Below, in pieces: positions 2,489 through 7,567 of a stretch of DNA of 10,584 bases. The DNA lies in NCBI GenBank assembly GCA_002712845.1, contig PAUV01000006.1:7497-18080 (forward strand). The letters are read 5' to 3'. The stretch comes from Rhodopirellula sp. (GTDB lineage Bacteria; Planctomycetota; Planctomycetia; Pirellulales; Pirellulaceae). The notes under the pieces were generated by a model. That model searched no databases. It saw only the letters and a program-made list of their open reading frames with translations, and was not told the DNA's origin. The translations under genes and the position numbers were made by a program. How positions within the stretch are numbered: the first letter of the stretch is position 1; each line of letters opens with the position of its first letter.

Positions 2489-3865
2489 TTAATCCCACCG
2501 CAAAAACGACTTCCCCCGATCCAAATTGAAACAGATCATTTGATCCTGCCCCGACTGATACCACGTGCCTGCAGTGAGTGCAGACATTTCGATAACCTGT
2601 TTCAGCTTGACATCCAAACGTGGAGGCCCCTTAGCATTCGTGACACGAAGCGTAAAGTGTTTGACGTCGAATGGCGCATCGAAGGTAATCTGATTCCCAA
2701 TACGTTTGATCGCCGTTAAATCCTTCGCAGCCCAATAACGGCCGATTTCACTTAACTTCATCCAGACTGTCTGATCGCGATAGCGAGCATTCAATGAAGT
2801 TACAATTCTCTGGAATGCTCGAAAACCAGATTCAGTCCCGTTGTTATACATCCCGGGCCAATGACAAAGCATGATTGCGGGCTGTTTACGTTCGATCAGC
2901 TCAACCATCCGACCCGACGTTGCATCCCGATTGCAATATCGATCTGTATCGGGAACGCGATCACCCTGCCAACCACCGAACCAGTCTCCTGTGCCTGCTG
3001 GAACGTTAACGGTCAATCTCAGATCATCCGTTCCCAATCCTCGAACATGCTCCAAAATGGGTTCAGTATTTTGCTCGCCTGTACGCACATACTTGAAGTA
3101 GTGTGGCAGATCGACGGGATAGACATCTCGGACTGCCTGATCAACCGCCAGTGACAGTTCGCTCTTCACAAGGTTGCCAAAGCCACCTGGCGTGGTGATT
3201 CCCTCACACGGCAGATCACAACGCTCAAGGATTCGCAAGGCATAAGCGAGATACGCCGCCAGCTCATCAACACTCTTTTTTTGTTGTGGATAAGAGTTCT
3301 CCATGGTGCCAGCATTGATTGCTTCCATCGGTCGTCCGGTCTTCAAATCAATGACACGGGTGTGCGTGATCATTTCTGGGTGAATATCCCAGTTCGGCAC
3401 CATCAGTTCACGAACGAGTTTCAAACTGTCTTGCAATTGACGGCGCGACCACCCCGGCATCTCACGATCAACCCAACCCACGCAGGCAGGGTAGGGCACA
3501 ATGCTGTATTTTCCTCGCACTCCCCGATCTGCGCACCACTCACCAAACCGGCGAACAAACTGATCGGGAATCTCACGAGGCCAATCTCGCCAAGGCTTTC
3601 TGTATTCAGCGCGGTCAGGTAGCGCTTCGGCGAATTGAGGCGTGCAGAAATGCCCCATATTCACCAAGCAGGTTGAATCATCAATGACGAAGGACAGGGG
3701 AACACGGTTACGTGGAAGTAAAACCTTCACTCCCACAGTTTGCTGATCCGCACCAGATGCGCCTCGAGACACTGTTCCCACATCATCGTCTGCGATCAGT
3801 GAACTGGATCCACCATGCGCTGCAACACTGAGCCCCGTTGCCATGAAAGCCCGTCGAGTCTGCAT
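2489..3865 (-). CDS. Tat-exported polysaccharide deacetylase-like protein
   Basis: This 458-residue protein starts MQTRRAFMATGLSVAAHGGS, a twin-arginine signal (TRRAF followed by a mild hydrophobic stretch). The body looks like a NodB-fold glycoside hydrolase/deacetylase barrel. An acidic pair sits in LSFVIDDS (D62, D63) where the catalytic and metal Asp lie in this superfamily, and HPEMITH (H162, H168) resembles the two-His metal motif. TPGGFGN (226-231) and LCHWPGMYNNG (H335) could be the later active-site loops. Residues from about 385 resemble a small beta-rich C-terminal domain. A metal-dependent carbohydrate esterase or related hydrolase acting on envelope or environmental glycans is plausible, but the substrate is unknown. 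The frame extends to a TTG at 3886; ATG 3865 is preferred because GAGGTGA precedes it and because this puts RR right at the N-terminus. It stands alone, convergent with the DUF1559 gene. Confidence 0.75.
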   Translation of the reverse strand: MQTRRAFMATGLSVAAHGGSSSLIADDDVGTVSRGASGADQQTVGVKVLLPRNRVPLSFVIDDSTCLVNMGHFCTPQFAEALPDRAEYRKPWRDWPREIPDQFVRRFGEWCADRGVRGKYSIVPYPACVGWVDREMPGWSRRQLQDSLKLVRELMVPNWDIHPEMITHTRVIDLKTGRPMEAINAGTMENSYPQQKKSVDELAAYLAYALRILERCDLPCEGITTPGGFGNLVKSELSLAVDQAVRDVYPVDLPHYFKYVRTGEQNTEPILEHVRGLGTDDLRLTVNVPAGTGDWFGGWQGDRVPDTDRYCNRDATSGRMVELIERKQPAIMLCHWPGMYNNGTESGFRAFQRIVTSLNARYRDQTVWMKLSEIGRYWAAKDLTAIKRIGNQITFDAPFDVKHFTLRVTNAKGPPRLDVKLKQVIEMSALTAGTWYQSGQDQMICFNLDRGKSFLRWD

Positions 3866-3869
3866 CACT

Positions 3870-3876
3870 TCACCTC
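3870..3876 (-). promoter_or_regulatory. Ribosome binding site fixing the deacetylase-like start
   Basis: GAGGTGA on the minus strand, with GAGG seven bases before the ATG at 3865. It is the strongest Shine-Dalgarno match I see in the window and decides against the upstream TTG at 3886. Confidence 0.7.
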
Positions 3877-4159
3877 GTTCGCGCAAGCGGTAGGAATTGA
3901 ATCCAGCACAAAGAGACCGCCTCAGTGCTGACCATCATACAAGCATTTTACCGCACAATCGGCGTGCAGAACCGGAGCGTACACAGAACAAGTCACTAAA
4001 GCCTGTTAAGACACCTAGCCGGCCCCAAAACAAACTTTTTCCGGCGTGGAAGCATCTCTGAGGATAACGTGAATAATCGCGAGTCTGCTCACATAACCCC
4101 TGATCACACCCAACGGAGGAAAGACGAAGCACCGTGAAGATTTAATGTCCCGCTGCAAC

Positions 4160-4196
4160 CCAGTGCAGGGCAAATCCAGTGCAGGGCAAATCCAGT
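4160..4196. repeat. 16-bp direct tandem repeat, about 2.3 copies
   Basis: The unit CAGTGCAGGGCAAATC occurs at 4161-4176 and exactly again at 4177-4192, followed by CAGT. The flanking base C at 4160 extends the match. On the minus strand a third, degenerate copy (TGCACTGGGTTGCAG) follows. It lies about 55 bp downstream of the ccoP stop, outside any supported gene. Confidence 0.9.
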
Positions 4197-4251
4197 CAGC
4201 CCACCCGGTACATGCGAGCTTTTCTTTTTGATCCATAACGACCACTGCAAG

Positions 4252-4905
4252 CTAGCCCTGCGCTGCTGGTTCTTCAGCACTTGCATTTTCAGATGGGGGC
4301 TGCGGCCATGGCCCAATCTCTCGTCCTTCGGCTGGCTTGCCTGACCCGTCACTTTTGCCTCGCAAACTCGCCACATAAGCTGAAACCAGAACGATCTCAT
4401 TCGTGGATAATTTTGACTTCCATGCAGGCATCGCCCCGGCGTTGGCACCATTTTCCAGGACTCGCAAGATGTCAGCAATATCACTGACATTTTTGTAATG
4501 GTCATCCTGCAAATTCGGCCCAACTTGACCAATTCCATCACGACCGTGACATGAAACGCAATTCGTCTTGAAGATCGATCGCCCAACTCGCAACCATGAA
4601 TCGTCATAAGTAAAACGCACCAACGTCTCACGATCTGCTTTCAATTCTCCCATCTGGCTGAATTGCAACTTCAAGTTTGCAGCCAGCAACTGATCATGTT
4701 GATCAGCAAGCGAACGACCCTCGGTACCATTGTGGTAGTACCAAAAATAGGGCGGAGCAAAGACAAGGCAACCTGCAAATAGCCAGATCCACCACTTCGG
4801 TAATGGGTGATCATACTGTTGAATCCCATCGAAGGATGCATCAGTCAACTTATCAGCAGACGATGCATCGTTTGAATCAGAAGCGTTTGGGTTGTGATCG
4901 CTCAT
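4252..4905 (-). CDS. ccoP: Mono-heme CcoP-type cytochrome c subunit of a cbb3-like complex
   Basis: This 217-residue protein has the CcoP N-terminal signature FDGIQQYDHPLPKWW (residues 25-39), then one membrane segment (about 39-57), then a periplasmic cytochrome c domain. Heme c attaches at CVSCH (116-120) and the sixth ligand is probably M159 in AGAMPAW. Classical proteobacterial CcoP is about 300 residues with two CxxCH sites; this protein has one, and the remaining domain resembles the second classical domain (GAMPAW plus a final YVASL helix). It would accept electrons from a soluble or membrane donor and pass them to the CcoO heme. The frame opens at 5058, but ATG 4905 has GGGAG at 4916-4920, places the signature near residue 25 as usual, and avoids an unconserved leader. 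The ccoNO fusion lies 232 bp upstream on the same strand. The tail after residue 180 is Gly/Pro/Glu-rich. Confidence 0.9.
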   Translation of the reverse strand: MSDHNPNASDSNDASSADKLTDASFDGIQQYDHPLPKWWIWLFAGCLVFAPPYFWYYHNGTEGRSLADQHDQLLAANLKLQFSQMGELKADRETLVRFTYDDSWLRVGRSIFKTNCVSCHGRDGIGQVGPNLQDDHYKNVSDIADILRVLENGANAGAMPAWKSKLSTNEIVLVSAYVASLRGKSDGSGKPAEGREIGPWPQPPSENASAEEPAAQG

Positions 4906-5137
4906 GGCTTGAAAGCTCCCCGACGAAATCAGGGCTGTAAGACTGGGGCTAAAGGATTCAGTGGTTTGTTTGGGAAAAAGCTTCGGCACACAGATGATGG
5001 TCCGTGGTGATTTCAGCGTTTGCAAGTTGCAGTAAAACGGTACATCGTTTGTTATCAATCACGTTTGCAGGAATTCCTTTGCTGCACCATAGCGATGCCC
5101 TCGGGGCAAAGTGCTGTCATGAAAATTCCACGCACGA
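4906..5137. other. Spacer between ccoNO and ccoP with no ccoQ
   Basis: These 232 bp separate the two cbb3-like genes. A CcoQ-type gene (a short single-TM protein) would be expected here in a classical ccoNOQP operon. The frames on the minus strand contain only a 21-codon ATG frame and the unconserved upstream extension of the ccoP frame, neither with a membrane segment. The long spacer leaves room for a separate ccoP promoter, which I could not locate. Confidence 0.6.
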
Positions 5138-7567
5138 TCAAGGCACGGCAGTGAGCATCTTGTTCATGTCGGAATCGCGAGCTGTTTTCGTCAATTTTGG
5201 ATCGATTGGGTTGGTTTTCGTTTGGCCAATTTTCGTTGTGCTGGTTTTCGTTGTGCTGGTCGTGTTCTCGTCTTCAGCAACAGCAGGTTTTGTTTTCGCA
5301 GCGGGCGGGGCGGAAAGATCAGCCCCCAATCGTTGCAGGTAGGCAATCAGGGCTACCGCTTGCGAATCGAAGGTCATCAGGTTGCCACGCCGCACCGTTC
5401 CTCCCTTGGAAACAATGTCAGCTGCAAGACTCTCTGCCTGCTTGCTGACGCTATTTTTCACCTCAGCCAAGTCAGCGTCATAGCCAATCCCTCGTTCTTG
5501 AGCCGCCTGCACCAGTTCGTCCACTTCCTCCATGTCGATGGGTCGATCAAGCAGATACCGATACGAAGGCATTGCTGAGTCAGGGCTGGTTTTGCGAGGA
5601 CTCACCAGGTGCTGCCAATGCCAGAAACTGGCTTGCTTTCCAGACTCCCTTGCCAAGTCGGGACCGATCCGCCGATTTCCCCACTGGGCTGGCTGGTCAT
5701 ACACAAACTCACCGGCCTGACTGAACTCACCGTAGCGTTTCGTCTCAGCCATCAGTGGCCTGACCATCTGAGTATGACATTTGGAGCACCCTTCAGTCAG
5801 GTAAATGTGCCGTCCCATTAATTCCAAAGGCGTGTAGGGTTGGACAGACGCGATTTCTGGCACGTTACTGCTGGCAAAGACAAACAGGGGAACGAGTTCG
5901 ATCGTGAATGCAACCAGAACCACCAGTGCTACCAAGACACCGATTTTGCGTGGTGACTCCTCCCACTGTTGGTGCCAATTCAACCGGGTCCAGATGTCCA
6001 CCTTCTTGGCCACGTTCAAGACGGGCGCTGCCTCAAGAATGCTAACCGGCTCTGGAGTTGATACCGGGCGATTCTGTTTTGCATTGGACTCTACGTGATA
6101 AACCGTTACCTGGTAAGGTTTCGCACGATTCATCCAGGTCTTCGTGTAGTTGGCAAGCATCACGCCCAAGCCAACGAAATAAACCAACCCGCCCAACATT
6201 TGCAACGACCACACCATCTTCAGGAAGGACGTCGACTCAGCAAAGTCATATTTTAGAATGCCAAGATCATCCATGGCATTCCAAACACCACTCTGAACAA
6301 ATCCAGCCGCATAGCCCGGCAAGACGCACAACAAGACGCCAGCTGCTGCCAACCAGAAATGCAAGCTGGCTGCCTTTGAACTGGCGATCCCTGTTTCAAA
6401 AAGTTTGGGGATCATCCAGTAAGCCATGCCGATCACCAGCATTCCGCCACATCCCATGAGTCCCAATTGAAAGTGAGCAGTAATCCATTCAGAGTAATCC
6501 ACTTGGGCGCGGATACTTTTCACGCTCAAGGCAATTTCTTCACAGGCATAGACGCCAAGCAATAAAACTCCCCACTTGAGAAATCGCATCGAAGGATTGG
6601 CTGATTTATCAACCTCGCTTGAGCGGAACGTCAACAACAGGTTAGTGACGCCACCGAACACAGCCACACCAAACAAGATCCCAAACAACATTCCAAGGCT
6701 GGACACCCACTCGGACAAAACGGTGTAATGCAAAAGCCGCGGTGCTGCCCAAACCCCCACAAGGGTCAATGTCCAAAAACTGACGATGGTAAGTTTGTAA
6801 CTGTGGATTGGGCGATTCAGTACCTTCGGGACAAAGTAGTACGCCAGCCCCAGAGCTGGCATGATCAACAGAAACAGCGTCGCATTATGGCTATACCACG
6901 CCTGCAACAAAGCATCCTGCATTCCAGTCGCCAGCGAGTCGCTTTTCCATAGCCCCGTTGGAAACACAAACAGCGTGCATAGATTGTTCAATCCCATTCC
7001 AACCACAGCCGCGATATAAAACCACAGCGACACATACATTCGTCGCACTCGGCGGTGCGATACCGTCATCGCAAAATTTGATGCAAAGAACAGGATCCAC
7101 ACCAACGTCATTGCCAAGTCAATTGGCCACTCTGCTTCACTGAGCTCACGCCCTTGACTAATTCCTCGGGGCAGGGTGACCAACGCAGCAATAATGATCG
7201 CCTGCCAACTGAAAAAGTGAAGCCAACTCAAAGCCCCACTCCACATCCTCGCCTTACAAAGTCGCTGGGTGCTGTAATAGATTCCCGCAAAGACTCCGTT
7301 ACCAACGAATGCCATGAAGAACAGCAACAACCCAACGGGCTGAAGTCGCCCGAAACTTAACCACTCTACTCCAGCATCCTGCCTCGGATGGAGCAAGGTA
7401 GAGGTGACAAGGACAGCGTTAACTGCAGCGACAAAGCCCCAAAGAAGTGTCACCGTCAAGAAACAACGGACAATTGTGTCATCGTAGGAGTATGACTCCT
7501 CAGAAGCACCGTCCAGCATCATTACATCAGTCCCGGATGGATCGTCAGGGGAAGTCCCGCTTAACAC
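5138..7567 (-). CDS. ccoNO: Fused CcoN-CcoO cbb3 oxidase-like protein with degenerate oxidase site
   Basis: This 809-residue protein joins a multi-TM CcoN-like domain (about 26-485) by a short linker to a CcoO domain (about 528-750). CcoO is canonical: one TM (541-565), QPYTPLELMGRHIYL, heme c site CSKCH (594-598), QMVRP, AGEFVYDQPAQWG, GPDLAR and a Met ligand in SAMPSY (M666). The CcoN half keeps family landmarks: FVGNGVFAGIYY, SWQAIIIAALVTLP, EWPID, WYSHNA, YYFVPK, LLHYT, WITAH and IPKLF. But by position the low-spin heme ligand of RLRPLHT is G79, the CuB pair HH is R277-L278, the cross-linked Tyr is G271, and the second low-spin heme His is Q367. Only H227 (CuB-type) and H365 (heme b3-type) remain. 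Family knowledge: these residues hold the hemes and copper, so ordinary O2 reduction seems excluded. The GTG start at 7567 is the longest choice; ATG 7522 (preceded by GGGA eight bases away) fits usual CcoN length better. Residues 751-809 are a Thr/Lys-rich tail absent from classical CcoO. Confidence 0.93.
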   Translation of the reverse strand: MLSGTSPDDPSGTDVMMLDGASEESYSYDDTIVRCFLTVTLLWGFVAAVNAVLVTSTLLHPRQDAGVEWLSFGRLQPVGLLLFFMAFVGNGVFAGIYYSTQRLCKARMWSGALSWLHFFSWQAIIIAALVTLPRGISQGRELSEAEWPIDLAMTLVWILFFASNFAMTVSHRRVRRMYVSLWFYIAAVVGMGLNNLCTLFVFPTGLWKSDSLATGMQDALLQAWYSHNATLFLLIMPALGLAYYFVPKVLNRPIHSYKLTIVSFWTLTLVGVWAAPRLLHYTVLSEWVSSLGMLFGILFGVAVFGGVTNLLLTFRSSEVDKSANPSMRFLKWGVLLLGVYACEEIALSVKSIRAQVDYSEWITAHFQLGLMGCGGMLVIGMAYWMIPKLFETGIASSKAASLHFWLAAAGVLLCVLPGYAAGFVQSGVWNAMDDLGILKYDFAESTSFLKMVWSLQMLGGLVYFVGLGVMLANYTKTWMNRAKPYQVTVYHVESNAKQNRPVSTPEPVSILEAAPVLNVAKKVDIWTRLNWHQQWEESPRKIGVLVALVVLVAFTIELVPLFVFASSNVPEIASVQPYTPLELMGRHIYLTEGCSKCHTQMVRPLMAETKRYGEFSQAGEFVYDQPAQWGNRRIGPDLARESGKQASFWHWQHLVSPRKTSPDSAMPSYRYLLDRPIDMEEVDELVQAAQERGIGYDADLAEVKNSVSKQAESLAADIVSKGGTVRRGNLMTFDSQAVALIAYLQRLGADLSAPPAAKTKPAVAEDENTTSTTKTSTTKIGQTKTNPIDPKLTKTARDSDMNKMLTAVP
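5230..5259. repeat. 15-bp tandem duplication inside the ccoNO 3' end
   Basis: TTTTCGTTGTGCTGG is present twice in exact tandem copies (5230-5244 and 5245-5259). It is in frame and encodes a repeated Thr/Ser/Lys pentapeptide (TSTTK) in the low-complexity tail, downstream of the conserved CcoO domain. It is probably replication slippage without effect on the heme domain. Confidence 0.85.

Follow-up and report, generated by a model that had tools for sequence, protein, structure and literature searches.

The locus described here raised the question of what a cbb3-type oxidase subunit can still be doing once most of the residues that bind its hemes and copper have been replaced. The window, i.e. 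the whole stretch of 10,584 nucleotides from Rhodopirellula sp. that was analysed, had been read in an initial annotation as encoding a cbb3 scaffold that lost O2 chemistry while remaining intact in frame and keeping the heme c sites of CcoO and CcoP. Its relevant features are as follows:

5138..7522, minus strand: ccoNO-like fusion gene of 794 aa, whose ATG at 7522 aligns with the starts of its relatives
6113..7510, minus strand: CcoN-like half with the COX1 fold
5303..5980, minus strand: CcoO-like half with one heme c (CSKCH at 5788-5774, Met at 5572-5570; PF02433, 240 bits)
4252..5058, minus strand: CcoP-like gene with one heme c (CVSCH at about 4560-4546; PF14715 and PF13442)
3887..4251, minus strand: 365-bp gap from the CcoP gene to the conserved 465-aa gene
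2489..3886, minus strand: gene of a 465-aa protein, present at the locus in intact and altered genomes

The open frame of ccoNO extends to a GTG at 7567; the ATG at 7522, which gives 794 aa as in relatives, is the likelier start. The likely start of the CcoP gene is an ATG near 4905. Upstream of ccoNO are found genes for a FloA-like flotillin, a small protein (no Pfam match) and a glycosyltransferase; downstream stands the 465-aa gene, which matched no Pfam or NCBIfam family. The ccoNO product scored 339.8 bits against TIGR00780, under the CcoN equivalog cut-off of 583.15 (NCBIfam).

A search of 5.8 billion proteins, in which 8000 candidates were scored and the best 120 matches examined, delineated a clade of twelve rows (P0001-P0012), P0001 and P0002 being the window gene itself. 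P0002-P0012 displayed 66-100% identity, and the next matches among the best 120 reached at most 52%. Residues were mapped by alignment to P. stutzeri CcoN (3mk7), in which we take H345 to be the axial His of heme b3, and H60 and H347 the two His of low-spin heme b. The three CuB His (H207, H257 and H258) are numbered as in the excerpted text of PMC3578206. The positions concerned are:

7331..7333, minus strand: G79 in place of a low-spin heme b His (3mk7 H60); G or A in 12 of 12 clade rows
6755..6757, minus strand: G271 where 3mk7 has the active-site Tyr (Y251); all 12 clade rows have G
6734..6739, minus strand: R277 (6739-6737) and L278 (6736-6734) where 3mk7 has the paired CuB His H257 and H258
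6467..6469, minus strand: Q367 at the site of the other low-spin heme b His (3mk7 H347); all 12 clade rows have Q, E or Y
6887..6889, minus strand: H227, the remaining CuB-type His (3mk7 H207), kept in 11 of 12 clade rows
6473..6475, minus strand: H365, the remaining heme b3 axial His (3mk7 H345), present in all 12 clade rows and in 19 of the 21 rows altered otherwise
6539..6541, minus strand: E343 (3mk7 E323), kept in 12 of 12 clade rows

All substitutions named in the initial annotation were present in the DNA at the positions given there, and the alignment upheld each of them, as it did the claim that H227 and H365 are the only CuB or heme His left. The homologs shared these changes: H60, Y251, H257 and H347 were lost together in all twelve clade rows, and 105 of the 109 further matches among the best 120 (P0013-P0121) kept all eight residues checked. 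Replacements at the CuB pair varied within the clade (R, Q or G at H257; L, Q or H at H258, lost in five of twelve rows), and position E323 is D in genome locus L053. Compared with the cbb3 hallmarks, window CcoN is devoid of both low-spin His, the Tyr and two of the three CuB His, and displays the b3 axial His. Since the latter persists throughout the clade, a single b-type heme may still be bound, which refines the initial reading. As the defining ligands are missing, the protein is filed here as a cbb3 derivative and not as a cbb3 oxidase.

H117, H280 and H403, which had been named as possible stand-in ligands, were rejected in that role since they are His in intact proteins as well (105/106, 106/106 and 106/106 intact rows, respectively, including 3mk7, with T at H117). 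No newly gained, fully conserved His able to replace the lost ones was found in the twelve clade rows; residue 60 of the clade proteins (distinct from the 3mk7 H60 site) is His in 11 of them and Y in P0011. An enzyme still reducing O2 through other ligands would be in keeping with a fold and subunits of the cbb3 oxidase type, yet the lack of such a His, together with copper-loading genes not being found in the genomes of relatives (see below), makes it extremely improbable.

A genome scan yielded 28 loci, seven of which belonged to the clade (L001-L007, under the labels Rhodopirellula, Rubripirellula and planctomycete MAGs), and a family-level search added an eighth clade genome, G181. In agreement with the initial description of a gene intact in frame, no stop was found inside the CcoNO match in the window or in any of the eight clade genomes (in G003, the gene is split in two pieces over two contigs). 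A single mutation or sequencing error was ruled out by the occurrence in 11 clusters and eight genomes. Purifying selection on clade CcoN was apparent from dN/dS values of 0.072-0.104 in nine clade pairs (a tenth being saturated), and these values, with the uninterrupted frames, led to rejection of a pseudogene. CcoN values were no higher than those of CcoO; neighbour genes gave 0.095-0.159 (GT2) and 0.075-0.132 (465-aa gene), and five intact CcoN pairs 0.016-0.040.

Slow decay of a redundant oxidase, whose relic gene would be conserved through operon or assembly constraints, could account for a clade dN/dS roughly 2-6 times that of intact CcoN, for the 133 of 244 invariant CcoN sites given up in the clade and for its long stem branch (0.82). 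Such a process accords poorly with the absence of stops, with a dN/dS near 0.1 despite divergence to about 65% identity, and with the many sites fixed inside the clade. The CcoO heme c sites are preserved too. Invariant sites still held amounted to 44 of 55 in the CcoO heme c domain versus 111 of 244 in CcoN (Fisher p 2.6e-6). Decay is consequently considered unlikely, and the altered complex is, with good confidence, likely maintained by selection. The CcoN fold was intact in the window protein. As read from the sequences, CcoN no longer has its low-spin heme b ligands, its redox Tyr and most of its CuB ligands, and the fold, the c-heme sites and the b3 His and Glu have been kept under selection.

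The heme c sites initially reported for both other subunits were confirmed. CcoO displayed CxxCH and the Met (5572-5570) in 12 of 12 clade rows, and CxxCH in 15 of 16 altered loci, the sequence of L056 ending before the motif. A Met ligand is proposed solely within the window clade, since the MPxY pattern was not found in CcoO of L177, L197 and L198 (nor in L056, which ends early). All 16 altered CcoP examined, window included, contained CxxCH and an MPxW motif. CcoP of model species carries two heme c. Window CcoP has a single CxxCH, and a second one was found in none of the 123 CcoP examined in relatives; one heme c, unlike the 3mk7 system, is likewise the rule in intact relatives.

Gene order around the locus was shared among relatives (gene read as trigger factor, FloA, unknown gene, GT2, CcoNO, CcoP, 465-aa gene). 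At this same locus, the CcoNO of G185, G186 and G187 is intact, and downstream of it come ccoG, ccoH, the gene of a DsbD_2 protein and that of a copper-type P-ATPase (ccoI), which together take up about 5.4-5.5 kb where the window has 365 bp; the full upstream order was seen in G186 only, since the G185 and G187 contigs stop at or just past GT2. Remnants of ccoG, ccoH, dsbD2 or ccoI were not detected by tblastn in 12 altered loci, including the window, while both positive controls were. Genome-wide absence concerns eight relatives, and the locus alone for the window itself: ccoG, and likewise a ccoI match above 700 bits, occurred in 0 of 8 clade genomes versus 9 of 10 comparison genomes (MAGs of unstated completeness). 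The tenth comparison genome, G190, had no ccoG/ccoI ortholog and is itself altered. Weaker P-type ATPases were present in four clade genomes, and FixH-like matches in clade genomes were weak only, inside frames of at least 700 aa.

The family set comprised 241 genomes, 145 of them with a CcoNO match, and 130 loci were examined in 128 genomes. Intact loci with ccoG numbered 108, intact loci without it six (three at contig ends, in G015, G019 and G106), altered loci without it 14 and altered loci with it two (G103 and G115, both also holding an intact copy). Counted over loci that are not phylogenetically independent, with the altered loci of G103 and G115 omitted and weak ccoG matches (G015, G225) scored as absent, the contrast was 14 without and 0 with ccoG for altered loci versus 6 without and 108 with for intact ones (Fisher p 2e-14). 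CcoI exports the copper used in maturing cbb3, CcoG acts as a cupric reductase, and R. capsulatus requires CcoH to assemble its cbb3 (PMC8267372, in excerpt, and the abstract of PMC8475189). As copper and heme ligands have been lost along with copper-loading genes, the complex probably no longer reduces O2; judged from its residues and gene content, O2 reduction would be very unlikely. Absence of the assembly genes is by itself no proof of absent copper, since C. jejuni retains half of its activity after loss of ccoG, and a ccoI mutant of that species is partly rescued by added copper (PMC8267372, in excerpt).

The window protein is not isolated: sequence comparison places it at the far end of a range of planctomycete CcoN with altered ligands. 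Among 202 protein rows, 169 were intact, 12 belonged to the window clade and 21 were altered otherwise (P0060, P0062, P0066, P0093, P0122-P0128, P0131, P0133, P0135, P0143, P0152, P0160, P0173, P0175, P0190 and P0192). The latter are planctomycete-type CcoN with CuB His or Tyr replaced and both heme b His kept. Losses in the 12 clade rows and the 21 others were, respectively, 12 and 0 for H60, 12 and 0 for H347, 0 and 2 for H345, 1 and 9 for H207, 12 and 6 for H257, 5 and 12 for H258, 12 and 16 for Y251, and 0 and 5 for E323. The b3 axial His is absent from P0152 and P0175, and P0093 displays Glu at the H207 position. Five genomes (G190, G183, G182, G184 and G189) form class I, with altered CuB/Tyr and both heme b His at the same syntenic locus; class II is the window clade. 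In a CcoNO and CcoP tree, in which long branches are involved, both classes grouped together (100/99) and placement of class II with G185-G187 was rejected (p 0.001). The neighbour-gene tree preferred the latter placement (89/91) and did not reject the former (p 0.095). Five changes were counted on a FastTree tree with weak nodes (support down to 18), and a second heme b loss fell on G103/G115. These genomes contain a strongly diverged second CcoNO-CcoP copy (L197 and L198, QNTRQEHQ and QSTRQEHQ; stem branch 1.98), with the intact copy elsewhere in the genome. In L177 (G102), Y251 is replaced by Cys, the other seven sites are intact and ccoG was not found, which may reflect an early stage or an incomplete genome.

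We give about even credence to an overall reading in which an oxidase was turned in place, under selection, into a copper-free c-heme relay without a functional b-heme pair. It would mark the last stage of a wider planctomycete radiation whose CcoN gave up CuB and the Tyr; heme b would have gone as well in the window clade and, by an apparently separate loss, in G103/G115. For the gene product itself, a cbb3-derived pseudo-oxidase working as c-heme relay is proposed tentatively, with slightly less assurance. It is offered as the best mechanism because it uses cofactors common to the altered versions. CuB would not be inserted and O2 not reduced; CcoN would act as a membrane scaffold, and the two c hemes of the complex would form a fixed relay at the periplasmic face. 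Electrons would enter from quinol:cytochrome c oxidoreductase or soluble cytochrome c and might conceivably leave to another acceptor, e.g. the A-family oxidase that most of these genomes encode; no gene indicating an electron acceptor was seen at the locus. A single high-spin heme may persist at the b3 site.

Published mutants bear on this relay in both directions. R. capsulatus devoid of CcoS, a factor needed there for heme b, heme b3 and CuB, was reported to contain a detected and inactive CcoNOQP with a likewise cofactor-less CcoN, and C. jejuni mutants in ccoI or ccoS continued to insert CcoO (PMC8267372, in excerpt). These cases indicate that cofactor-poor CcoN can coexist with heme c subunits, the difference being that the R. 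capsulatus complex comes from a laboratory mutant and window CcoN is an evolved state. Against the relay, neither complex nor CcoNO subcomplex was detectable in R. capsulatus without CcoH, and CcoO and CcoP were strongly reduced in R. gelatinosus without its CcoI homologue (same excerpted source). Furthermore, CcoN evolving no faster than CcoO is unexpected for a bare scaffold, and without low-spin heme b the path from CcoO heme c into CcoN is cut.

Compared with P. stutzeri cbb3 (3mk7), the window is without the low-spin bis-His, two of three CuB His, the Tyr and ccoG/ccoH/ccoI. NorB (4xyd, 3o0r) keeps its heme and FeB His, most of which are lost in the window, and was absent among the 13 sequence matches of a PDB search. 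The FeB ligands of cNOR are three His plus Glu, and the window keeps a His at one of the three corresponding His positions. Another heme-only chemistry could be envisaged, e.g. reduction of NO, nitrite or peroxide, either at a heme b3 without copper or at a non-heme metal site built anew from H227, H365, E343 and E344. The near-constant H227 is compatible with it, as are an extra acid after E343 (E in nine, D in one and Q in one of 11 aligned rows) and the Glu of P0093, which is reminiscent of the Glu at FeB in nitric oxide reductase. However, loss of H257 in all clade rows and of H258 in five, replacements that differ among members, unlike a metal site, and the missing electron path via heme b make this decidedly unlikely. 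Atypical CcoN of Nitrospina gracilis and some Sinorhizobium likewise depart around the CuB site, with W203 replaced (PMC3578206, in excerpt).

The respiratory setting was consistent with a dispensable cbb3 activity. Non-CcoN COX1 genes, taken as A-family from match scores, were present in 11 of 13 altered-locus genomes (7/8 in the clade, not in G004; 4/5 in class I, not in G183), so that the check for another terminal oxidase proposed in the initial annotation gave candidates in most relatives. Ligand motifs were matched in five such proteins of 741-754 aa (L029-L033), and the single COX1 scanned was above the TIGR02891 cut-off. Loss of O2 reduction probably became tolerable once other terminal oxidases took over that role. 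A bd oxidase was recorded in 1 of 16 genomes, an intact relative; 15 of the 16 encoded NrfD-like proteins, a type that alternative complex III also contains. Cytochrome b of the bc type occurred in 6/8 clade, 0/5 class I and 18/114 intact-CcoNO genomes (kinship uncontrolled), as well as in 4/17 unread CcoNO genomes and 71/96 genomes without CcoNO match. In G001, cluster L199 reads CoxB/c, CoxA/C fusion, CtaG, Rieske, cytochrome b/c, which suggests that a bc-linked oxidase could have made the cbb3 O2 reductase dispensable. Clade-wide ligand loss, selection, fold, heme c motifs, loss of ccoG/H/I and the other COX1 together support the initial reading of a cbb3 scaffold without O2 chemistry.

In window-clade genomes, such clusters (L199, scanned for protein families, and L200, assigned by gene sizes and order) adjoin a RegB/RegA-like two-component pair. 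The Rhodobacter cbb3 oxidase is said to signal to a histidine kinase of the RegB/PrrB type. A redox or gas sensor was considered on this basis, in which the complex would signal to such a kinase through the redox state of its c hemes or through a five-coordinate heme bound by H365, with no copper on the distal side. H365 and E343 are constant in the clade, the b3 His is frequent in the other altered rows, and a RegB/PrrB-like kinase with a RegA/PrrA-like regulator adjoins the bc-caa3 cluster in G001 (same gene-size order in G006), the kinase being matched in 18 of 19 genomes searched. The two kept sites are nevertheless weak evidence of heme, and not accepted as proof of heme b3, against a background of 111/244 sites kept. 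Moreover, the kinase is equally present in intact relatives and unlinked to the ccoNO locus, and both kinase and regulator fall under NCBIfam cut-offs. The sensor is therefore held to be doubtful, and the c-heme relay is retained as the working proposal.

CuB and the heme pair are what defines heme-copper oxidases as a superfamily, and a conserved lineage here gives both up. That the complex was kept after loss of ligands and copper-loading genes suggests a selectable job of CcoNOP beyond O2 reduction. No ligand-less CcoN was described in the titles and abstracts searched, which covered few subscription journals. Because a single syntenic locus offers intact forms, CuB-altered forms with both heme b His and CuB-altered forms lacking this pair, direct tests can address in which order the losses took place and what the second function is. 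In addition, a label such as 'cytochrome-c oxidase, cbb3-type subunit I' can suggest more respiration than these uncultured planctomycetes carry out.

A second, intact cbb3 was not found in the eight clade genomes, with at most four candidates scored per genome, and no further PF00115 match in G001-G007 was recognised as CcoN. G002 contains an extra PF00115 protein (L047, 777-aa frame) that is unmatched by the cbb3 query and possibly a nitric oxide reductase. Second, weaker CcoNO-like matches of 35-38% identity were also recorded beside a stronger one in three genomes (G016:C340, G019:C94 and G024:C3).
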